From Pleomorphomonas sp. PLEO (GTDB lineage: Bacteria; Pseudomonadota; Alphaproteobacteria; Rhizobiales; Pleomorphomonadaceae): 64,000 nucleotides of DNA. The notes under the pieces are model-generated. The model was not told the DNA's origin. It was given only the letters and a program-made list of their open reading frames with translations, and made no database searches. The DNA lies in contig NZ_CP166625.1 in assembly GCF_041320595.1 (NCBI RefSeq), positions 1,561,501 through 1,625,500 on the forward strand, in the 5' to 3' direction. Of this stretch, positions 2,580-20,858 are shown one piece after another. Within the stretch, counting starts at the first letter, position 1. Each line of letters starts with the position of its first letter. A program made the position numbers and the translations under genes.

Positions 2580-2814
2580 CCCGCCCGTTGCTACCGAATG
2601 ACTCGGGAGCGCGGGCTAGCGCAAATACAGTGGGATAAAGACCATTATCTTAAGTGGGCTTCGGCGGTGGAAAGCCCATCCCCTAGCGCCGCGATGGGCT
2701 GATGGGCAATCGAAGCGCCAGCTGATCGACGCCCGTGGTCGGTTGTTCCAGGCATGCCGGATCGAATTTCTCTGCCAACCTTAGTCTGGAATCCGACTTT
2801 CGGCCTAGCCATAA

Positions 2815-2828
2815 TTGACAAGGATCAA
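2815..2828. promoter_or_regulatory. FNR/FixK-type box
   Basis: TTGACAAGGATCAA matches the FNR/FixK consensus TTGAT-N4-ATCAA in 9 of 10 fixed positions. It lies about 115 bp upstream of the cytochrome b561 gene, so oxygen-responsive control of that gene is a reasonable inference. The remainder of the 363-bp stretch 2580-2942 shows no gene. Confidence 0.45.
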
Positions 2829-2942
2829 TGCGAGCACGGGACTGACCCATATCGTTGTCCGCAAGACTCCAGAAAAGGTCGTCGGGACCTTCGCGCCCTG
2901 GTCGGGCGCCAAGTGAACCCGCCGCATACAGACAGGAACACC

Positions 2943-3512
2943 ATGCAAGCCCCGCTCACCAACCGAGATTACAATCCGCTTTCCAAGCTGCTTCACTGGC
3001 TGATGGCGCTTGTCATCATTGTTGCCTGGGGTGTCGGCTATTATGGCGGTGCCATGCTGCATTATGGGGTGAGCGACGGCGAAACCGCGCAGAAGATCTG
3101 GGCGATCACCCTGCACAAGTCGATTGCCACGACGACGCTGTTCCTGATCGTCGCCCGCCTCCTGTGGCGGGCCAGCCATCGCCCGCCGGCGCTCGCCGAC
3201 ATGCCCAAGATCATGGAGCATCTGACGCATCTCGGGCATGGGGCGCTGTATTTCCTGATGGTCGCCGTTCCCCTGTCCGGCTGGGCCAACAGCTCTTCGG
3301 CCGGCTATCCCATCCCGGTTGCCGGGCTGTTCACGATCCCTGGTCTGGTGTCGAAGACCCCGGAATTGACGCCCTATCTCGTGTGGACGCACTGGTTCCT
3401 GTCCTGGGCGCTGGGGGTGACGGTCGTCGGGCATATGCTGTTCGCGCTGAAGCATCACTTCATCGACAAGGACTCGACGCTGCGCTCGATGATGCTGGGC
3501 AAGAAGGCCTGA
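2943..3512 (+). CDS. cytochrome b561 family protein
   Basis: A 189-residue integral membrane protein with four predicted membrane helices, the length and plan of bacterial cytochrome b561/Ni-hydrogenase-type b cytochromes. Heme-ligand histidines are visible at the helix starts: LLHWLMAL near residue 16, TLHKS near residue 55, and a pair in the last helix region (VWTHW and VVGHM). It would pass electrons between the quinone pool and a periplasmic partner. The start at 2943 follows AGGAACACC; a longer reading frame upstream overlaps the FNR-type box and is not protein-like. No partner gene lies next to it. Confidence 0.88.
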   Translation: MQAPLTNRDYNPLSKLLHWLMALVIIVAWGVGYYGGAMLHYGVSDGETAQKIWAITLHKSIATTTLFLIVARLLWRASHRPPALADMPKIMEHLTHLGHGALYFLMVAVPLSGWANSSSAGYPIPVAGLFTIPGLVSKTPELTPYLVWTHWFLSWALGVTVVGHMLFALKHHFIDKDSTLRSMMLGKKA

Positions 3513-3525
3513 CACGGGCAATAAT

Positions 3526-3548
3526 GGGGCGCGTGATAAAAGCGCCCC
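3526..3548 (+). terminator. hairpin after cytochrome b561 gene
   Basis: A perfect 7-bp GC stem, GGGGCGC and GCGCCCC, with a 9-base loop begins 14 bases after the stop codon. There is no strong T-run, so termination would be weak or assisted. Confidence 0.5.
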
Positions 3549-3726
3549 GCCTCCTTCGGCCTGAGGTTCTCTGCCTGCGCGGAGAATGACAAATTAAATA
3601 ATAAAAACAAATTTATAGGTTGTCTTCCTCTGCGTGAGGCAGAGGATCTCCGGCAGGATGGGGCGGGCGGCGCATATAGGGTATCAAAGCCGTGCGTCGC
3701 TCGACCTCGCGCCCCCGAAACGCCTC

Positions 3727-4458
3727 CTACATCCGCGACCACTTGCCGATGACCAGCCCGATGACGCGCACCAGTTCGGCCGGGCGGCGCTTGGGCGGCA
3801 CGGCGGCGTTTTCGGAGATGATGTCGACGGTGCGCGGGTTGTCGTCGTGGTTGAGGCGCAGGCGCTTCACCGAGGGGCCGTCGCCCTCGTCGATGACATA
3901 GATCTCGGCGTCCTTGACGTCGCTGACGGCGGTGTCGACCGCCACCACGTCGGACGGGTTGAGGATCGGCTGCATGGACGTGCCGATCACCGGAATGAAG
4001 ATGACGCGGGCCGGATTGGCGCCCAGATGGGCGCGCGGCACCACCCATTCGCCGGTGACCAGATGGCCCGACTGGATGCCGCCCGACCTCAGCGTCAGCA
4101 CCTGGCCGGAGGAGCCGTCGCCGGCGCCGGCCCGCGCGTCGACCTCGGCCGAGCCGCCGGGAAGGCGGGCCTGCCAACCTTCCTGCCAGCCGTTGTCGTT
4201 GTCCTCGTCGAGCGGGATGTGTTCGGGCGTATCCTCACCGTCGCGCGGGATGGCGTAGGGCTCGTTCATGATCTCATTGAGCCGGACGCCCAGAACGTCG
4301 GCCAGCGCGCGCATCTTCTCGACGCCCGGATCGCGGCTGCGCTTCAGGATATCCCGCACATAGGTTTCGCCGAGCTCGGCCTTGAGCGACAGCGACTTCA
4401 TGTTGAAGCCCTTCTGGCGCATCAGAAGTTCGAGGCGTGATTTCCAGGTCTGTTCCAT
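3727..4458 (-). CDS. CI/LexA-like phage repressor (XRE HTH + S24 peptidase)
   Basis: A prophage-type repressor of 243 residues. The N-terminal helix-turn-helix is seen around residues 10-65 (MKSLSLKAELGETYVRDILK). The C-terminal half is an S24 (LexA/CI) self-cleavage domain with the nucleophile serine in GTSMQP and the general-base lysine in SVKRLRL. Such repressors are inactivated by RecA-stimulated autocleavage during DNA damage. An alternative in-frame ATG at 4476 is excluded because it would lie inside the promoter: TTGACG (4494-4489) and CATAAT (4471-4466) with a 17-base spacer place the transcript start practically on the ATG at 4458. It is divergent from a Cro-like gene. Confidence 0.9.
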   Translation of the reverse strand: MEQTWKSRLELLMRQKGFNMKSLSLKAELGETYVRDILKRSRDPGVEKMRALADVLGVRLNEIMNEPYAIPRDGEDTPEHIPLDEDNDNGWQEGWQARLPGGSAEVDARAGAGDGSSGQVLTLRSGGIQSGHLVTGEWVVPRAHLGANPARVIFIPVIGTSMQPILNPSDVVAVDTAVSDVKDAEIYVIDEGDGPSVKRLRLNHDDNPRTVDIISENAAVPPKRRPAELVRVIGLVIGKWSRM

Positions 4459-4461
4459 AAG

Positions 4462-4538
4462 TGGGATTATGCCCATTGTTTACCGTCCCGTCAACGGGTA
4501 TCTGCCCATTGACATGATGGGATTTTGACCATTACAAT
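4462..4538. promoter_or_regulatory. three-operator divergent phage switch
   Basis: Three related 16-bp operators lie at 4462-4477 (TGGGATTATGCCCATT), 4495-4510 (CGGGTATCTGCCCATT) and 4518-4533 (TGGGATTTTGACCATT). The common core is the inverted repeat TGGG-N6-CCCA. The first covers the repressor promoter -10, the middle one abuts or covers both -35 boxes, and the third covers the rightward -10. The rightward promoter is TTGACA (4509-4514), an 18-base spacer and TACAAT (4533-4538), only 6 bases before the ATG at 4545. Both transcripts therefore appear leaderless. Confidence 0.75.
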
Positions 4539-4895: not shown

Positions 4896-5330
4896 ATGGC
4901 AACGCTCACCCGGCAACCGAGTGTCGCCCTCGGCCTGTTGCCCAAGGGGGATTATCAGGCCCAGGTGGTGGACAGCGCCGTCGTGTCCACCGCCTCGGGC
5001 AGCGGCGAGATGTTGAAGCTCACCTTCGAGGTGCTGGCCGGCGACTTCCGGCGGCGGCGCGTCGTCGAGCGGCTCAACATCGTCAACGCCCATGCCGCGG
5101 CGCAGCGCATCGCCCAGGAGATGCTGGCGCGCCTATGCGCCGCCGCCGGCCTGTCCGGCATCGCCGACAGCGAGGAATTGCACGGCATTCCCGTGACGAT
5201 CCGCGTCGATATCCGGCCAGGCAGCGGCGACTATGGCGAGCAGAACATCATCAAGGACTATCGCGCGCTCGCCGCTCCGAAGTCCCCGCCGCGACAGATG
5301 ACCAGCGCCCGCCGGCCGTGGGACCAGTGA
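4896..5330 (+). CDS. DUF669 family phage protein
   Basis: A 144-residue protein of the DUF669 type, common in the replication modules of phages and prophages. Characteristic features are the LPKGDYQAQVVDS opening, the GSGEMLKLTFEVLAG segment and the WERLNI-like stretch (here VVERLNIVN). DUF669 proteins are suspected to act with phage recombination or single-strand binding functions, but no reaction is established. AAAAGGAG lies 8 bases before the ATG. The proline-rich tail SPPRQMTSARRPWDQ is typical of flexible C-termini that contact partners. Confidence 0.8.
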   Translation: MATLTRQPSVALGLLPKGDYQAQVVDSAVVSTASGSGEMLKLTFEVLAGDFRRRRVVERLNIVNAHAAAQRIAQEMLARLCAAAGLSGIADSEELHGIPVTIRVDIRPGSGDYGEQNIIKDYRALAAPKSPPRQMTSARRPWDQ

Positions 5331-7194: not shown

Positions 7195-9485
7195 ATGGCC
7201 AGGCTGACCACGCCCTTTGCCGTCGCCGATCTGCCGCCGGCGCCCAACCGGGCGCTGGCGCTCGATCTGGCGCGGGCCGGTCTTGCCGTGTTCCCGGTGC
7301 GCGGTGCCGGGCCGGATGCCAAGAAGCCGTGCCCCACGGTGCGCTGGGGCGATGACGCCACCTGTGACGCCGCGGCGATCGACGGCTGGTGGCGGCGCTG
7401 GCCGGATGCCATGCCGGCCATTCACCTGGGGCGCTCCGGGCTTCTGGTTGTCGACCTCGACCGGCACGACGGCGGCGAGGATGGAATCAAGGCTTGGGAC
7501 GACGTCAATCGGGGCGTGATGGCGCCGGCCGTCGATACGCCCTCGGGCGGCCGCCACATCTATTTTCGCCAGCCGGAAGGCCGCGCCCATGGCAACCGCG
7601 AGGGGCTGCTGAAGGGGCGCGGCATCAACATTCGTGGGCTGGGCGGCTATGTGGTGGCACCCGGCGCGTTGAGAGCCGACGGCGAGGGCGCCTATCAGCC
7701 GCTGCCGGCGGGCGCGCTGAGGGCGGCGCCCCTGGTACCGGACTGGCTTTACGCGCTGATCGATCCGCCCCCCCGGAACCCGAGCCGAGGTTCGAACCGA
7801 GGCAGGAGCCGGGCGCTCCTTCGCCCATCGCCGATGCCCGCCTTGCCCGCTACGCCGACAAGGCTATCGCGGCGGAGATCGACGCGCTGCGCGCCGCCGG
7901 CAAGGGCGGCCGCAACAACCAGCTCAACCGAGGCGCATTTTCGCTGGGGCAGATGGTCGGCGCCGGCTGGCTCTCGGAGGCGACGGCGACATCGCTGCTG
8001 ACCTCGGCGGCGCAAGACTGCGGCCTTGCCGCCGACGATGGCTTGCCGGCCTGTCTTGCCACCATCCGCAGCGGCCTCAGGAAGGGCAGAACGCAGCCAC
8101 GCGAGGCGCCGCGCGATGCCCGGCCCGAGCCGCCGCGCCCGCCCAAAGGGCCGCGTCGCCTGATCAAGGAGCGCTCCGGCGCGGTAGTTGATGGCGACAC
8201 CGGCGAGGTAGTCCATGAGGCCAAGCGCGCCCGCGCCGCCGTGGAATTCCCCGATGCGTTGACCCACGTGCCGGGCCTTGTCGGCGACATCACCAACTGG
8301 ATCTGCGACACGGCCCGCCGGCCCAACCGGGTGCTGGCGCTCGGCGCGGCGCTGACGCTGGTCGGCACCGCCATGGGCCGCTTCTGGGCCGGGCCGACGC
8401 TGAGCTCCACCGTGCTCTACATGCTGGCGCTGGCGCCGTCCGGCGTCGGCAAGGACCACGCGCTGCAGCAGATCAAGCGGCTGCTCGCGGCCGCCAAGAT
8501 GACGCGCACCATCGGGCCGGACGAGTTCATCTCCATGCCGGCCGTCATCCATTTCATCGAACGCGAGCCGCTGTCGCTTTGCCCGATGGACGAGTTCGGC
8601 GCCTTTTTAAAGCGCATCAACGCCAAGCGTGCCTCCGGCTTCGAGCGCGGCATTTCCAAGATCATGCGTTCGGTGTGGGGCACCAACTTCGGCCTGATGA
8701 CCACGCCGGAATGGGCGGCGACGCCGGCCCGCACCATCCGGGCGCCGGCGCTGTCCATCTACGGCGCCTCGACGCCGGAGGATTTCTTCGAGGCGCTGGA
8801 CGGCGGCGACGTGTCCAACGGCTTCCTCAACCGCTTCACCCTGCTCACCGTAGCCAGCCGCACCGAGGACCGCGAGCCGGCGCTGCCGCCGCTCACCGTG
8901 CCGGAGAAGCTATCGGAAAGCCTCAGGCGGCTGTTCGGCGGCGGCAATCCGCTGGTCGTCGCCTCGAAACTGCACGAGACCGACATCGAGATCGACCCGT
9001 TCGTCATCCCCTGGGGCCCCGGCGCCGAAGCGGTCTACACGGGGTTCCAGCGCGAAATCCTCGCCTGGCAGGACCGCGACGCCGACGCCGAAAACTTCAT
9101 CGGCCGCGCCGCCGAAATGGCGGTGCGCATGGCCACCATCCGGGCCGGCGGCCGCGATCCGGTGGCACCACGGATCACCGTGGACGACATCGAATGGGGC
9201 CGGGCGGTGGCGCTCTGGTCGGCCCGCACCCTCTACCGCATGGGCCGCCTCTACATCTCCGAAACCGACTTCCAGGCCGAAGCCAACCGCGTGCTGCGCA
9301 TCATCGACAAGGAAGGCGGCGAGATTTCTCAGGAGACGCTCAGGGCGCGGATGAAGAACCGGCTGCGGGCGCGGGAGTTGAGGGAGGTGATCGAAACGCT
9401 GGAGGATACGGGCGCGATTACGCGGGAGAGCGTGGCGACGGAGGGCGGAGGACCGAGGAAGACGCTGTATTTTTTGAGGGGGTAG
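7195..9485 (+). pseudogene. prim-pol/ATPase replication protein with a -1 frameshift at a C7 run
   Basis: Two frames together encode one protein of about 760 residues. The first (from 7195) is an archaeo-eukaryotic primase-type prim-pol domain: metal-binding VVDLDRHDGG near residue 95 and SGGRHIYF near residue 120. The second (to 9485) is a P-loop ATPase of the DUF3987/phage helicase kind with Walker A APSGVGKD and a following MDEFG acidic box. The first frame loses sense after LIDPPP, exactly at a run of seven Cs (about 7768-7774); the second frame takes over with EPEPRFEPR. One missing base would explain it. Sequencing error, true decay or slippage of polymerase or ribosome at the run are all possible. 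It would start phage DNA replication. Confidence 0.75.
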
Positions 9486-9647
9486 GGGGGTAACGAAGTA
9501 GTCGCCCGGTTCCTTCAGCGTGCTGTCTACGCCGTACAGGGCTTCAAGTCCAATATGTCTGCTCATCCGATTTGCGATTGGATTTACGTGATAATTGTCC
9601 GTAATTGATCCCTTGACGGCGAACGGGGATATGGTAGCGTCAACATA

Positions 9648-9791
9648 GGCTTACAGGCAGAATTGTTGTCCGGTTTCGAGACATATGTACCAATGTCGGA
9701 TGGGCTTTTGTGCTACCCGATACCCTTATTGCATGATGCCTGCTATTCGTATGTATTATGCTACCTGAACGCGTAAGAGTGCCTGTAAGCC
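9648..9791 (+). ncRNA. retron msr-msd non-coding RNA
   Basis: The region just before the reverse transcriptase has the layout of a retron RNA. GGCTTACAGGCA at 9648-9659 and TGCCTGTAAGCC at 9780-9791 form a perfect 12-bp inverted repeat, the a1/a2 pair that primes reverse transcription. Inside are a small stem TGTC/GACA (9667-9670 with 9680-9683), a stem 9696-9703 with 9713-9720 (one mismatch, 9-base loop), and GCATGAT/ATTATGC at 9731-9737 with 9755-9761 (one G-T pair), the candidate msd hairpin. TTGACG (9613-9618) and TAGCGT (9635-9640) with a 16-base spacer would start transcription at about 9647, right at a1. Exact msr/msd borders are not determinable by eye. Confidence 0.75.
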
Positions 9792-9804
9792 CGTTTGTTT
9801 TTGG

Positions 9805-11547
9805 GTGGCCGTGTCACAACTGAAAAAGCTTAAAGAGACGAGCGATCGAAATGAGCTTGCTGCCCTATTAGGGTTCAAGCCCAGTGCGCTAACGTCTATT
9901 ATTTATCAAACTCCGCTCGAAAATCGTTATACGATCTTTGAAATAGACAAGAAGTCCGGCGGAAAGAGAATAATCAAAGCCCCTACTCCGAAACTCAAGA
10001 AACTACAAACGCACCTGTCGCATCTGTTGTACCAATGTCTCGATGAGATCGAAAGAGAGCGCGGCGAGAAGCCTTTGTCGTTTGGCTTCCGAAGGGACCT
10101 TTGGATCGCTGACAATGCGGCCTGTCACAAAGGACGGCGTTGGGTGCTCAATCTCGACCTGAAGGATTTTTTCCCATCCTTCAATTTCGGCCGCGTCCGT
10201 GGGTTTTTCCTCAAGGACAAGTTTTTCAAACTCCAGCCCCAAGTCGCTACCACGATCGCGCAGATCGCCTGTGACGGTGTTGCGTTACCTCAGGGAAGCC
10301 CGTGTTCCCCTGTGGTGTCGGAGTTAATCGCCCGCATCCTGGATATGCGCTTGGTTTGGCTCGCGAAGAAATATCGCGTGACATACACACGCTACGCGGA
10401 CGACATCACCTTTTCTACCAGCCAGAAAGATTTTCCTGCGGGTGTTGCCTTTCGAGATGTCCAAGATACCGCGCTTTGGATATTGAGCGACGAGCTCCTT
10501 ACCAAGATTACTGGCTGCGGATTTGAGGTGAATCCAGAAAAAACTCGCATGCAGTTCCGTGGTAGTCGCCAATCTGTAACTGGCCTGACGGTCAACAAGA
10601 AGGTGAACGTTAGTAGTGAGTATTATCGCCGCGCACGAGCCATGTGTGACTCACTTTTTTCAACAGGTTCTTATTTTCGGTCGATGGAAAAACCGGATAA
10701 AGAAGGAGGCGATTCGAAGCCTAATTTGACCAATAGCCTCAATCCACTAGAAGGCATACTGGGGCATATCTACGCGGTCACGCAAACAGAAGACCGAAGG
10801 GATGTTGGAGAGCAGCGGATAAAGCCAAGAGCCATTAGAAAACTCTATCGACGTTTCCTGTTCTACAAATATTTCGTGGCACTTGATGTTCCGCTGATCG
10901 TCACAGAAGGCAAAACAGATCCAGTTTATCTGCGGGCTGCCGTTCAAAGCCGTACCCGGTTTCATCCAATCTTGGGAGAGGCAAAAGGTGGATCGTTTAT
11001 CCACGCGGTTCACTATTTCAACTATGGAGGACTTTCACACGAGGTGCTTGACCTTGGGGGAGGTGGTGTTGGTAATTTGAAATCTATTCCATTGGACTAT
11101 CGACGCAACTTTCTTCCGAAAAAAGACGAACACCGCGCGATGGCACATAAATCAATGGCGTATCCTGTCATTTTGGTCTTGGACAATGATACTGGCCTCG
11201 GCCCTGTCGCGAGCACCATGAAAGAGAATTTTGGCGTAAGCTTCAGCGTGACTTCGACCGCGTCATTCTACCATATTACGGACAACCTATATGTCGTTAA
11301 GACCCCGGAGACTGTTGGCAAGAGCTGTATCGAGGACCTGCTACCCAAGGAGTGGCTGGAGAAAGAGCTGAACGGAAAGAGGTTTAATCCCAAGCCCGAC
11401 ATCACAAAACAATATGGCAAGGAAGTGCTCGCCAATTCCGTGATTAAGCCCAATGCCAGCCAGATCGATTTCTCAAGGTTCGATCCTCTGCTCGACCGAA
11501 TTGTCGCGGTGATGGTAGACTATGCCTCAAAGAAATCCGCCCACTAG
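9805..11547 (+). CDS. retron reverse transcriptase fused to TOPRIM domain
   Basis: A 580-residue retron reverse transcriptase with an extra C-terminal domain. Visible RT features in order: NAxxH retron motif (NAACH, 104-108), motif A (NLDLKDFFPSF, 116-126), LPQGSPCSPVVS (161-172), catalytic YADD (197-200), and the retron VTG motif (SVTGLTVNKK, about 257-266). From about residue 360 a TOPRIM fold follows, with the glutamate motif VTEGKTD (366-372) and the acidic VLDND (458-462), as in the Ec67/Eco2-type RT-TOPRIM retrons. Known retrons of this kind protect against phage by abortive infection, with the TOPRIM acting as the effector nuclease. Translation starts at GTG 9805 (or GTG 9811), 13 bases after the a2 repeat. 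GC is lower than in neighbouring genes, suggesting transfer. Confidence 0.93.
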   Translation: MAVSQLKKLKETSDRNELAALLGFKPSALTSIIYQTPLENRYTIFEIDKKSGGKRIIKAPTPKLKKLQTHLSHLLYQCLDEIERERGEKPLSFGFRRDLWIADNAACHKGRRWVLNLDLKDFFPSFNFGRVRGFFLKDKFFKLQPQVATTIAQIACDGVALPQGSPCSPVVSELIARILDMRLVWLAKKYRVTYTRYADDITFSTSQKDFPAGVAFRDVQDTALWILSDELLTKITGCGFEVNPEKTRMQFRGSRQSVTGLTVNKKVNVSSEYYRRARAMCDSLFSTGSYFRSMEKPDKEGGDSKPNLTNSLNPLEGILGHIYAVTQTEDRRDVGEQRIKPRAIRKLYRRFLFYKYFVALDVPLIVTEGKTDPVYLRAAVQSRTRFHPILGEAKGGSFIHAVHYFNYGGLSHEVLDLGGGGVGNLKSIPLDYRRNFLPKKDEHRAMAHKSMAYPVILVLDNDTGLGPVASTMKENFGVSFSVTSTASFYHITDNLYVVKTPETVGKSCIEDLLPKEWLEKELNGKRFNPKPDITKQYGKEVLANSVIKPNASQIDFSRFDPLLDRIVAVMVDYASKKSAH

Positions 11548-11651
11548 GGATCAAAATTGCCAAAGGGCTTGGGGGCTCCAATCTGGCTATGGTGGCAAAG
11601 CTGTTGGAAGGGGCGGCCCATTAGGTAATGCGCAACCTTATGGGGGCACCC

Positions 11652-11876
11652 ATGCCACGCCCCAAGCAAACCGTTGACGGGCTGACCAAGTTTCAGCGTT
11701 ACCGGCAGCAACAGCAGCGTCAGGGCATGAAGCAATTGCGGATTTGGGTGCCCGATCCCAACCGGCCGGAATTTGTCACCGAGGCCAAGCGGCAGGGACT
11801 TTCTCTGCGTGGCCGGGCCGAAGAGGCTGAGGCGTCGGGCTTTATTGCCGCCGCTTTTGAGTGGCCTCAGGAATGA
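11652..11876 (+). CDS. MazE-like antitoxin (DUF3018 type)
   Basis: A 74-residue antitoxin of the DUF3018 type. The pattern VDGLTKFQRYRQ, then GMKQLRIWVPDPNRPEF, then a helical tail matches the second antitoxin in this window (47667). The start at 11652 is preferred over ATGs at 11628 and 11640 because GGGGG precedes it with normal spacing and the family begins there. Its stop overlaps the toxin start (ATGA). It should bind DNA through its N-terminus and block the toxin with its C-terminus. Confidence 0.8.
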   Translation: MPRPKQTVDGLTKFQRYRQQQQRQGMKQLRIWVPDPNRPEFVTEAKRQGLSLRGRAEEAEASGFIAAAFEWPQE

Positions 11877-12199
11877 AACGGGGCGATCTCGTAAAGGTCT
11901 CGACCCAGGGCGACACTGGCAAGCCGCGCCCGTCGGTCGTCATCCAGTCCGATGCGCTCGACGCGGCCGATAGCGTGCTCGTCGCCTTGTTGACCAGCAC
12001 GACCGCCGATGCGCCGCTCTACCGGCTCACGCTTGAACCTACTGCCGGCAACGGCCTCAAGACCATCTCGCAGGTGATGGTGGACAAGGTGCTGGCCTAT
12101 CCGCGCGCCAAATGCGGCCCGGTGATCGGCCGGCTTTCATCCGCCGACATGCTGGTGCTGAACAACATGCTGCTGGTGATGATCGGCCTTGCCGACTGA
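11873..12199 (+). CDS. MazF/PemK family toxin
   Basis: A 108-residue PemK/MazF-type endoribonuclease toxin. The opening MKRGDLVKVSTQGDTGKPRPSVVIQ contains the RGD-L and KPRP-VVIQ motifs of the family, followed by LLTSTTADAP and SQVMVDKV (the usual Q-hydrophobic-D-K segment). It would cut mRNA at short sequences. It lies in a two-gene operon with the preceding antitoxin. The pair follows the retron by about 100 bp and may stabilise or belong to the same mobile segment. Confidence 0.88.
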   Translation: MKRGDLVKVSTQGDTGKPRPSVVIQSDALDAADSVLVALLTSTTADAPLYRLTLEPTAGNGLKTISQVMVDKVLAYPRAKCGPVIGRLSSADMLVLNNMLLVMIGLAD

Positions 12200-12364
12200 C
12201 GGCAGATCAAAACGCCGCCGTCTTGTCGGTGCCGTATTGATCCATGAATAGTCCATAAGCAGGCTTCGTGATCCGTTTATGGATCATGCTGGTCGCGGGC
12301 TGTGAGGAAAGCGGCGTTGCACCCGTCCTATGTTGCGCGACCTATTCGAAAGCGAGCTCCTCCC

Positions 12365-12952
12365 ATGTCCTCTCCCCTCCAAGCCATCCTCATCTCCGGC
12401 ACTTCCCATGTCGGCAAGTCGACGCTGGCGGAGAAGCTCGCCGGGCGGCTCAAGTGGGCGGGGATGTCCACCGACAAGCTCGGGCGGCATCCTGGCCGGC
12501 CGTGGCTGGGGATCCCGGCGCCCGTCGCCGAGTTCTATGCGCGGCTGTCGCCCGAGACGATCCACTGGTTCTTGAAGGTGCACCACGAGAACATGTGGCC
12601 GGCGATCCGCCAAAGGATCGAGGTGGAGCGGGACGCCGGGCGGCCGTTCGTGCTGGAGGGCGCGGCGCTCAGGCCCGAGTACATTGCCCCCATTGTTTCC
12701 GATGAGATCTTTGGCGTGCTGTTGCATGCCGATGACGCGTTTCTGCGCGGGCGCATGCGGTCGGCGGCCGATTATGAGCAGCGCGACGGCGCCGAACGTG
12801 GCCTGATTGACGCTTTCATCGATCGGTCCTTGCGGGAAAATGCCGCGTTCAAGGATGCGGCCCTTAAGGGCGGGCTCAGAATCGTCGATGCCGCCGACGA
12901 GCGGGCGATCGACGACCTATTCGATGAGCTTGTCGCGCGGGCTTCGATCTAA
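12365..12952 (+). CDS. P-loop small-molecule kinase-like protein
   Basis: A 195-residue P-loop protein with Walker A SGTSHVGKST at about residues 11-20 and an LID-like arginine region (FLRGRMRSAADYEQRDG). The layout resembles 2-phosphoglycerate kinase-like and chloramphenicol phosphotransferase-like kinases (AAA_33 group). The acceptor is unknown. The ATG at 12365 is taken because the upstream extension is not family-like. Its 3' end overlaps the convergent GNAT gene by 4 bp. Confidence 0.8.
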   Translation: MSSPLQAILISGTSHVGKSTLAEKLAGRLKWAGMSTDKLGRHPGRPWLGIPAPVAEFYARLSPETIHWFLKVHHENMWPAIRQRIEVERDAGRPFVLEGAALRPEYIAPIVSDEIFGVLLHADDAFLRGRMRSAADYEQRDGAERGLIDAFIDRSLRENAAFKDAALKGGLRIVDAADERAIDDLFDELVARASI

Positions 12953-13609: not shown

Positions 13610-14026
13610 TCAGTCAATGATGGGCTGGCCGCCTTCACGCGCCAGGCGCGCCAGGCCTTCCTTCATTTGCCGCACCTGTTCGGGCGAATGGCTCTGCCAC
13701 TTGGTCACTTCCGCGATGATCCTGAGGGGATCGCGGGAGCGATAGGATAACGTCGGGTTTCCGGGAAATTTCTTGTCCGTCAGATTGGGATCGTCGAAGA
13801 TCGGCCCGGTGGGTTCCACGACATAGATGCGCTCGGGCTCAAGGCCGGCGGCAAGCTCGGCGCCCCAGATCGCCGCGTCCAGCGTGCCCGAGAAATAGAC
13901 CCATGAAAGCGGTTGAGGGGTGCCAAAGTTCGAAGAATGACCGACGACGATATGGTCGCCCGGCCGCAGGTTGGCCCTGGTTCCGTGGAAGAAGGATTGC
14001 GCAAACACGCTGGCCGAAGCTGACAT
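13610..14026 (-). CDS. arr: NAD(+)--rifampin ADP-ribosyltransferase (Arr)
   Basis: A 138-residue protein of full family length that matches Arr enzymes. The NAD-binding start FFHGTRANLRPGD, the FSGTLDAAIWGAELAAG stretch, the VVEPTGPIFDDPNLTDKKFPGNPT segment and the YRSRDPLRI motif are all characteristic. Arr transfers ADP-ribose from NAD to the C23 hydroxyl of rifamycins and inactivates them. The ATG at 14026 has GGGAG upstream; a GTG two codons earlier is the alternative. It is chromosomal here with no integron or transposon beside it. Confidence 0.92.
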   Translation of the reverse strand: MSASASVFAQSFFHGTRANLRPGDHIVVGHSSNFGTPQPLSWVYFSGTLDAAIWGAELAAGLEPERIYVVEPTGPIFDDPNLTDKKFPGNPTLSYRSRDPLRIIAEVTKWQSHSPEQVRQMKEGLARLAREGGQPIID

Positions 14027-14081
14027 AGGCACAAGGCTCCCCGTTTATTGTTGACGCCGCCGCCGTTGGCACAGAGAGCCT

Positions 14082-19679: not shown

Positions 19680-20858
19680 TCATGTTTGTTCGGCGCGCTG
19701 GACCCGATAGTGATCGTCCGGTGATCGTTTGCGGGGAGCCCAGTCCAGGAAGTTCAGGTGGCCCGATTTCCGTAGATCGCTAGCGACGGCGTTGAGTTGT
19801 GAACGGCTTACGATATGGCGCCCGAGTACTCTGGGCCAAATGTCACCCCAGATCGCAATCGATGGTCCCGCTGGTACCAGATCCAGCAGCGATGCTTTAG
19901 CGTTGATCAGTTCTTGCGCCAGATAGGCTTCGGCTGGGTCGGGCGCCATTTGAGCAAAAGATTCGAATAACTCTGCCTGCTCGCTAGCTGCTACGGATGC
20001 TTGTAACTTGGCGACTCCACGTGCTTTGTCCTGCTTGCGCAGTGCCTTGATCTGACATTCCCGAAATACTTCTAGCCCAGCCGGGCTGCGGGTTCCATAG
20101 ATCAGACTATAGAGCGGTCGGTCTACGGTGGGTCTCAGGACAGTGGTCTCCGCAACAAATGGATAGTTGCCAATTCGCGCTAATGTGCCCGAAAAGGCTT
20201 CTATAAGAACTATTTTCCGATGTTCGGACTCGGCTCTCCCTTGCGGGGTGGGTTCTCTGAGGCATTGGCGCCAGCCTGGTTCCAAGAATAGTGCGTCAAG
20301 GCTGGCAGCGACTCCAGGACTTGAAACGTTAACGAAGCGATTGATGAAATCGAACATGAAATTGAAGACGACTTCGCTGTTTGGCCGCTTTACCAGCGGC
20401 GCAATGCGATCCATCTCAATTCGCCAGCCCTTTGGATCGATTAGCAAAAAAGAAAATGCGCGACGGGGTATATCCCTGAGAATAGTCTGCGCTAGTTCGA
20501 TAAACGATCCTTGATATGTCTTGATTTGGACGTCAGGAAAGAGAGCGCTGACTCCTTGTAACTTCGCGTATGCGGTGGGATCTTTCTCTACAAGGTAGGC
20601 CGACATTTTCAAGGAACGGCCGAGTTCATTCCATCTAGCCTTCACCTTCGCCAGTGTCGCAAGTGCAATGCCAAACGATGTGTCTTGAAATTGCTCGCCT
20701 GCGTTTTGCCAGGGACCTGAGAAACCATCGATATAGGCCACCTCGTTCCACTGGCTGCCTATCTTGTAGGCCCAGGCCTCGAGATACTCGCCCAATAGGA
20801 AATGCTTCACATAAGCTTGTTCACGCCCCTTGTAGAGCTCCAATTCCCCGATCATCAC
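19680..20858 (-). CDS. tcmP: three-Cys-motif partner protein TcmP
   Basis: A 392-residue protein of the TcmP family. Typical pieces are KHFLLGEYLEAWAYKIGS, VAYIDGFSGPWQN, FSFLLIDPKGWRI and VVFNFMFDFINRF. TcmP proteins occur next to three-cysteine-motif proteins such as the DUF5131 gene at 21094; their reaction is not established. The C-terminal 100 residues form a separate helical region ending in a winged-helix-like DLRKSGHLNFLDW. It is divergent from the DUF5131 gene and has lower GC than the core genome, consistent with transfer. A second, different tcmP lies on the other side of DUF5131. Confidence 0.88.
   Translation of the reverse strand: MMIGELELYKGREQAYVKHFLLGEYLEAWAYKIGSQWNEVAYIDGFSGPWQNAGEQFQDTSFGIALATLAKVKARWNELGRSLKMSAYLVEKDPTAYAKLQGVSALFPDVQIKTYQGSFIELAQTILRDIPRRAFSFLLIDPKGWRIEMDRIAPLVKRPNSEVVFNFMFDFINRFVNVSSPGVAASLDALFLEPGWRQCLREPTPQGRAESEHRKIVLIEAFSGTLARIGNYPFVAETTVLRPTVDRPLYSLIYGTRSPAGLEVFRECQIKALRKQDKARGVAKLQASVAASEQAELFESFAQMAPDPAEAYLAQELINAKASLLDLVPAGPSIAIWGDIWPRVLGRHIVSRSQLNAVASDLRKSGHLNFLDWAPRKRSPDDHYRVQRAEQT

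Follow-up and report, generated by a model that had tools for sequence, protein, structure and literature searches.

An intact-looking Ec67/Eco2-type retron at a variable site behind a phage-type primase-helicase in Pleomorphomonas

The window analysed here, a stretch of 64 kb of DNA from Pleomorphomonas sp. PLEO, very probably carries a type I-C (Ec67/Eco2-type) retron that looks intact, would work by an Eco2-like mechanism and would be swappable cargo behind a primase-helicase. A complete RT-TOPRIM retron of the Ec67/Eco2 type had been proposed here by the first-pass annotation, and the identification as a retron is upheld because protein profiles, the RT tree, covariation in the ncRNA and a held-out covariance model agree. 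The parts of the element, their conservation and covariation, its membership of the family and the differing contents of the site in related species were observed directly and are described below.

The RT-Toprim protein and its relatives

The RT-Toprim fusion protein is encoded on the forward strand at 9805-11547 from a GTG start, and its 580 aa comprise an RT on the N-terminal side and a Toprim nuclease on the C-terminal side. All three RT motifs named in the first-pass annotation were present in this ORF, as NAACH (residues 104-108), YADD (197-200) and VTG (258-260), and the fused TOPRIM domain with intact acidic residues that it had described was recognized by TEGKTD (367-372) and LDND (459-462), followed by YGK (537-539). 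When 23 RT-Toprim proteins including that of the window were aligned, the N and H of NAxxH, the T of VTG and the Y, D and D of YADD were invariant in all 23, as were the positions of Eco2 E374, G375, D378, D460, E515 and the YGK lysine. Among the acidic columns the exception was that of Eco2 D462, which is Glu in 3/23 proteins, the window protein not being one of these. As read from the sequence, the Toprim active site of the window protein is complete.

In searches of PADLOC profiles, RT-Toprim_I-C was the best match to the protein with 682.8 bits, compared to 319.5 bits for the next type, RT-TIR_XII. The NCBIfam model NF038237 (retron_Ec67_fus, retron Ec67 fusion) scored 644.5 bits against a cut-off of 450, and Pfam gave RVT_1 only. 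The solved Eco2/Ec67 protein (PDB 9i2f/9lm3) matched with an E-value of 1.9e-109 over residues 4-570, Toprim included. The window and Eco2/Ec67 thus have in common the RT-Toprim fusion, homology over nearly the full length, the Toprim residues E/D/DxD/E and the YGK lysine, but the two proteins are only 38% identical, and S513, H281 and R332 of Eco2 are not kept in the window. In the protein alignment H281, of the thumb, is replaced by Asp, and R332, of the trimer loop, by Pro in a loop where the rows align poorly; since both are changed, the window protein need not form the same trimer, and the oligomer of Eco2 cannot be assumed for it. The position of S513, a metal-B ligand, is occupied by Cys. 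This Cys was considered as a special feature and rejected, as residues in this column vary between S, C, E, T, A, D, Y, F and I among the 23 proteins. K562, as given in the accessible text of the Eco2 paper (PMC12405507), was also set aside; it corresponds to Asp in the chain numbering used, and the invariant lysine is that of YGK, K539 in the window.

In a tree of 35 RTs, in which the outgroup RTs carry no type labels, the window RT grouped with loci L019 and L027 with support of 100/99, amid the RT-Toprim rows. These rows were clustered, with 2 label changes compared to 10.0 in shuffles (0/500 as low). The grouping with TOPRIM retrons anticipated by the first-pass annotation was therefore found for the nearest relatives, but the tree does not resolve all RT-Toprim rows to a single side of a branch: the long-branched other RTs L024 and L015 lie in the same open fork, and 48% of bootstrap trees need one change for the set. 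L027 lies on plasmid pRmeGR4b of Sinorhizobium meliloti GR4 and L019 in genome G142, and their proteins, the nearest to that of the window, are 62-63% identical to it.

The family had been described beforehand as known mainly from enterobacteria and the window retron as a divergent member of it, and neither description held, given these relatives at 62-63% identity, one of them on a Sinorhizobium plasmid, and the occurrence of the family on rhizobial and Sphingomonas plasmids and in Firmicutes. Plasmid records in Sinorhizobium, Sphingomonas and Rhizobium already bear the product name 'retron Ec67 family', and the plasmid search also found the family in Enterococcus, Listeria and Staphylococcus; 18 of the 131 matching plasmid records, from Sinorhizobium to Staphylococcus, had one place covering at least 80% of the query. 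At E <= 1e-60, and with the own genome counted each time, matches were found in 9/385 genomes at class level with the RT-Toprim profile (L025 and L026 matching in the RT part only), and with the window protein in 5/397 genomes at order level and 7/398 at phylum level. Of 100 relatives, a number that includes the own genome, 11 had a match of some kind at E <= 0.001, and G017 was the only one besides the window genome with a full-length RT-Toprim. The close-relative scan of genome contigs returned one locus, L002, and that of viral contigs returned no locus. Retrons are also listed as characterised in Alphaproteobacteria in the accessible portion of a review (PMC8867640). These findings show that the RT-Toprim family is neither confined to enterobacteria nor new in rhizobia.

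The ncRNA and its promoter

The retron ncRNA, an msr-msd with a1/a2 arms, lies on the forward strand at 9646-9793. Its a1 arm (9648-9659) and a2 arm (9780-9791) pair at 12/12 positions, and the perfect 12-bp repeat that the first-pass annotation had reported was recovered exactly. When 9490-9810 was shuffled with dinucleotides preserved, 0/300 shuffles reached a perfect inverted repeat of 12 bp at a span of 60-230 nt (maximum 10). The transcript 9645-9795 folded with a z of -3.64, and 0/200 shuffles folded as well. Hairpins numbered four in its minimum-energy fold and three in the centroid. Of the three hairpins expected from the first pass, the msr hairpin is backed by covariation as shown below, but the others were unsupported.

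Upstream of the RT in 26 RT-Toprim loci, that of the window being one of them, the a1/a2 arms were found to be 11-14 bp long, some with G-U pairs. Three further loci were left out of this alignment: L023, where the match begins at residue 42 and a repeat was not found; L024, which is more distant and has arms of 9 bp; and L042, where the match begins at residue 152 and so does not include the gene start. L001, L003 and L020 are the same place, as are L019 and L037. Over 19 pairs in 26 loci, 98.2% of the 494 cells were paired compared to 75.7% in shuffles. Cells changed on both sides numbered 126, compared to 32.7 when columns were shuffled and 8-31 when the register was slid, and pairs with a change on both sides numbered 17, compared to 11.9 in shuffles, with 1/500 shuffles as high. 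In the a1/a2 helix 11/12 pairs had changes on both sides across the 26 loci, where pairing is favoured as the arms had been picked as inverted repeats; no such choice entered into the msr hairpin or the invariant bases beside it. The msr stem-loop (the RSL of Eco2; 9667-9683, forward strand) has 7 pairs in the alignment, 6 of which were changed on both sides; in the covariance-model register 2/7 pairs of the window hairpin are non-standard. The invariant bases are AGA in columns 14-16 and GAGT at the a2 junction. Lack of conservation of the repeat in homologous loci had been named as evidence against a retron; instead, the a1/a2 pairing is kept, with covariation, in 26 loci. This can be followed in the nearest relatives, as the msr hairpins of L027 and L019 are near-identical to that of the window and their a1/a2 sequence is unlike that of the window with the pairing kept.

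A covariance model (R1) was built from 24 rows, with the window and its nearest relative L019 held out. When the 64-kb window was searched with this model up to an E-value of 10, one match was obtained, at 9646-9793, with 76.4 bits and an E-value, rough for this model, of 2.1e-19. A covariance-model search, as suggested in the first pass, leads exactly to this place. An Rfam scan of 9300-11900 gave no retron family and two matches at chance level (E 1.4 and 9.6). The same repeat search applied to RTs without a Toprim match gave an 8-bp repeat for L026, none for L006 and a 17-pair repeat for L005. The last, at approximately 1308-1431 with a span of 124 nt, lies upstream of another RT in the congener G006, and L005 is perhaps another retron type.

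The alignment register was compared to published coordinates through L044, from E. coli NCTC8623. Its protein is identical to PDB 9i2f chain C over 586 residues, and L044 is therefore Eco2/Ec67 itself. In the accessible text of the Eco2 paper (PMC12405507), the branch base is rG15, the msd starts at rG52, and the msd has 67 nt and ends in CTGCC. In the alignment, the branch base of L044 is found in column 15 and its msd begins at residue 52, and the alignment columns give an msd of 67 nt ending in CTGCC, all as published. Since the register reproduces the published Ec67 msd, the same columns point to G9660 on the forward strand as the putative branch guanosine of the window, equivalent to rG15 of Eco2 and lying within A14-G15-A16, invariant in 26/26 rows, and to 9695-9778 on the forward strand as its msd template. 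The predicted msDNA of 84 nt starts TCTTACGCG, consistent with the msd of under 100 nt foreseen by the first-pass annotation. The a1/a2 arms, the branch G at position 15, the msr hairpin, GAGT at the a2 junction and an msd start at the same alignment column are all common to the window and Eco2/Ec67, but the msd of the window has 84 nt compared to 67 nt in Eco2/Ec67. By the same register the msd has 82 nt in L027, which is on a plasmid, and 75 nt in L019, and over the 26 loci its length varies between 58 and 87 nt.

The DNA strand of the 84-nt msd folded no better than shuffles (z +0.71; +1.1 in a second run), and a conserved msd hairpin was unsupported, with z values of the 26 DNA strands from -2.7 to +1.9 and below -2 in 4/26; no msd hairpins are therefore claimed. 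The msd of a Sphingomonas plasmid retron (L028 3852-3996) contains many ATGATG-like repeats.

A likely promoter lies on the forward strand at 9613-9640, with TTGACG (9613-9618) and TAGCGT (9635-9640) separated by 16 nt. The boxes match the consensus at 8/12 positions, and this promoter was not listed by a consensus scanner with a threshold of 9/12. When the best promoter-like site was sought in the 114 nt ending with a1, its second box fell within the same 5 nt in 15/26 loci including the window; 0/200 mononucleotide shuffles reached 15 (maximum 9). The promoter proposed before a1 in the first pass was thus recovered in its boxes and in a spacing to a1 common to these loci, but it is weak by consensus.

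The variable site and its flanking module

The retron cassette occupies approximately 9490-11622 on the forward strand, a stretch without DNA similarity to congeners at the site. DNA similarity to the window stops at 9479-9489 in 10/10 helicase-bearing congeners and resumes at 11619-11630 in seven of them (G001, G005, G006, G009, G010, G011 and G012). In G013 it resumes at 12023, and in G002 and G003 no resumed similarity was found within the stretches read. By these borders the retron site is sharp on the left in 10/10 and on the right in 7/10. No RT match was found at the site in the 10 congener stretches.

The DNA to the left of the retron encodes a CI-like S24 repressor (3727-4476, reverse strand), an SSB-like protein (4896-5330) and, on the forward strand, a phage-type primase-helicase (7195-9485; Prim-Pol, DUF3987; phrog_906, phrog_3022). 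To the right, on the forward strand, are a MazE-like antitoxin (11628-11876; PF11455) and a PemK/MazF-like toxin (11861-12199; PF02452). The helicase part of the primase-helicase was found at E <= 1e-40 in 10/13 congeners (G001, G002, G003, G005, G006, G009, G010, G011, G012, where it is in pieces, and G013); the remaining 46 relatives searched gave no match at that threshold. Homologues of the same two window ORFs, 2754-3512 and 12302-12952, enclose the module in G001, G006 and G013, with approximately 6.6 kb of extra DNA left of the module in G006 and G013. The phage-derived module named by the first-pass annotation is supported by the repressor, the SSB-like protein and the primase-helicase, and by congeners that share it with other genes replacing the retron.

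Several sequences lie near the module. A short interspersed repeat is present at 3526-3690; the query stretch containing it matched the own genome at 90 places, itself included, and congeners at many. An Arr-type rifampin ADP-ribosyltransferase (NF033144, 199 bits, cut-off 130) is encoded on the reverse strand at 13610-14032; homologues occur in the same stretches of G002, G010 and G011, and G012 has a short piece of it. A three-Cys-motif partner protein TcmP (TIGR04474, 142 bits) is encoded on the reverse strand at 19680-20858.

The contents of the site in the congeners come from a subset of the ORFs in their stretches that were scanned, and the PDC families among them are candidates only. 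G005 carries Hachiman HamA and HamB (233 and 874 bits). G003, for which the right border was not found, has a PDC-S64 protein (125 bits) and a type IIG R-M enzyme (277 bits), and in G009 there is a P-loop protein resembling PDC-S49 (81.5 bits over residues 36-212). A Fic/Doc protein in G013 scores above the NCBIfam and Pfam cut-offs and has only 33 bits to PADLOC PDC-S23. In G012 several genes extend over 5.5 kb, including those for an M78-peptidase and a BpsA_C-domain protein, and the PADLOC matches there are all weak. A 532-aa protein in G001 and a 400-aa protein in G006 gave no match in PADLOC, Pfam or NCBIfam. A small protein is present in G002, G010 and G011, bPH-like by sub-threshold matches in 2/3 and without a PADLOC match; G010 and G011 have an additional 208-210-aa protein, also without a PADLOC match. 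A PADLOC match above 80 bits at the site was found in 4/11 species (window, G003, G005 and G009), with the window retron counted.

By its predicted gene contents, the site resembles a defence hotspot. Those known from P2-like phages and P4-like satellites, as described in the accessible part of PMC9122126, are likewise a variable place in a phage-derived element with retrons, R-M and other defence genes. The window site differs from those described there in its flanks, which are the primase-helicase and MazE or MazE/PemK where the right border was found, and in a module whose chromosomal neighbours are the same in all three congeners for which both sides were read. The retron also differs in its setting from Ec67, which in L044 lies beside phage portal and terminase genes, in contrast to the primase-helicase in the window. 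A limited literature search found no published account of this particular site. The chances are about even that a phage replication module, fixed in the chromosome of most of the genus, is a platform that takes up and swaps whole anti-phage systems, such as the retron, Hachiman, type IIG R-M and Fic/Doc, directly behind the primase-helicase, and that the nameless proteins there are likely new defence systems. The nameless candidates in such a reading are the 532-aa protein of G001, the 400-aa protein of G006 and the small protein paired with the 208-210-aa protein in G010 and G011.

A role of the retron in maintaining the phage-derived module, for instance as its stabiliser or as a toxin-antitoxin, in place of host defence, is improbable. 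It does sit between the CI-like repressor and primase module and the MazE/PemK pair, but congeners carry Hachiman, type IIG R-M (in the species where the right border was not found) and candidate defence genes in the same place, and the helicase occurs without an adjoining retron in 10/13 congeners. Nor was an integrase or structural gene found among the ten proteins of each scan (Pfam and phrog families). The predicted contents of the site in congeners support a putative role of the window retron in phage defence.

Proposed mechanism and significance

For Eco2 itself, the msDNA, a self-inhibited trimer, the RNase activity of the Toprim and a denB-linked trigger are reported in the accessible text of PMC12405507, with the phage nuclease DenB as likely trigger. 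By homology with Eco2, msDNA synthesis, autoinhibition, a trigger, RNase activity and defence may be expected of the window retron as well. The upstream promoter would give an RNA of which approximately 148 nt are msr-msd, and pairing of a1 with a2 would bring G9660 to the template's 3' end. The RT domain would then prime on the 2'-OH of G9660 and copy from 9778 back to 9695, and the product would be single-stranded DNA of 84 nt attached to the msr RNA. The complex of protein and msDNA would keep the fused Toprim nuclease inactive until an infecting phage damages the msDNA, upon which the Toprim domain would cut RNA and phage replication would be blocked. The cassette would be one among several cargoes that can replace one another behind a phage-type primase-helicase, which most of the genus retains.

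It is very improbable that the parts merely look intact and that the retron is decayed or silent in its host, either untranscribed or no longer making msDNA. The adjoining primase-helicase consists of two overlapping frames in the window (7195-8001 and 7389-9485) and of one frame in G001, G006 and G013, reflecting either decay or a sequencing error, so that part of the module may be decaying or misread, and the promoter falls short of the scanner threshold as noted above. Against this, the RT-Toprim frame is uninterrupted from start to end and contains the RT and Toprim motifs, the ncRNA has a score of 76.4 bits, and the promoter-like boxes are placed as in 15/26 loci. An RT of another class, such as a DRT or that of a group II intron, with a chance inverted repeat upstream has next to no likelihood and is already contradicted. 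RT motifs are common to many classes and the group II RT (47 bits) and DRT (29 bits) profiles matched weakly, but the retron profiles are ahead by hundreds of bits, NAxxH and VTG are present, and the ncRNA is conserved with covariation.

The Eco2-like retron of the window adds a well-supported member of the Ec67/Eco2 type outside enterobacteria, and the covariation-backed ncRNA alignment of 26 loci makes the msd length readable for each. This kind of retron is already known and its surroundings are the more interesting part, with the site behind the primase-helicase being a practical place to seek new defence genes in the genus.
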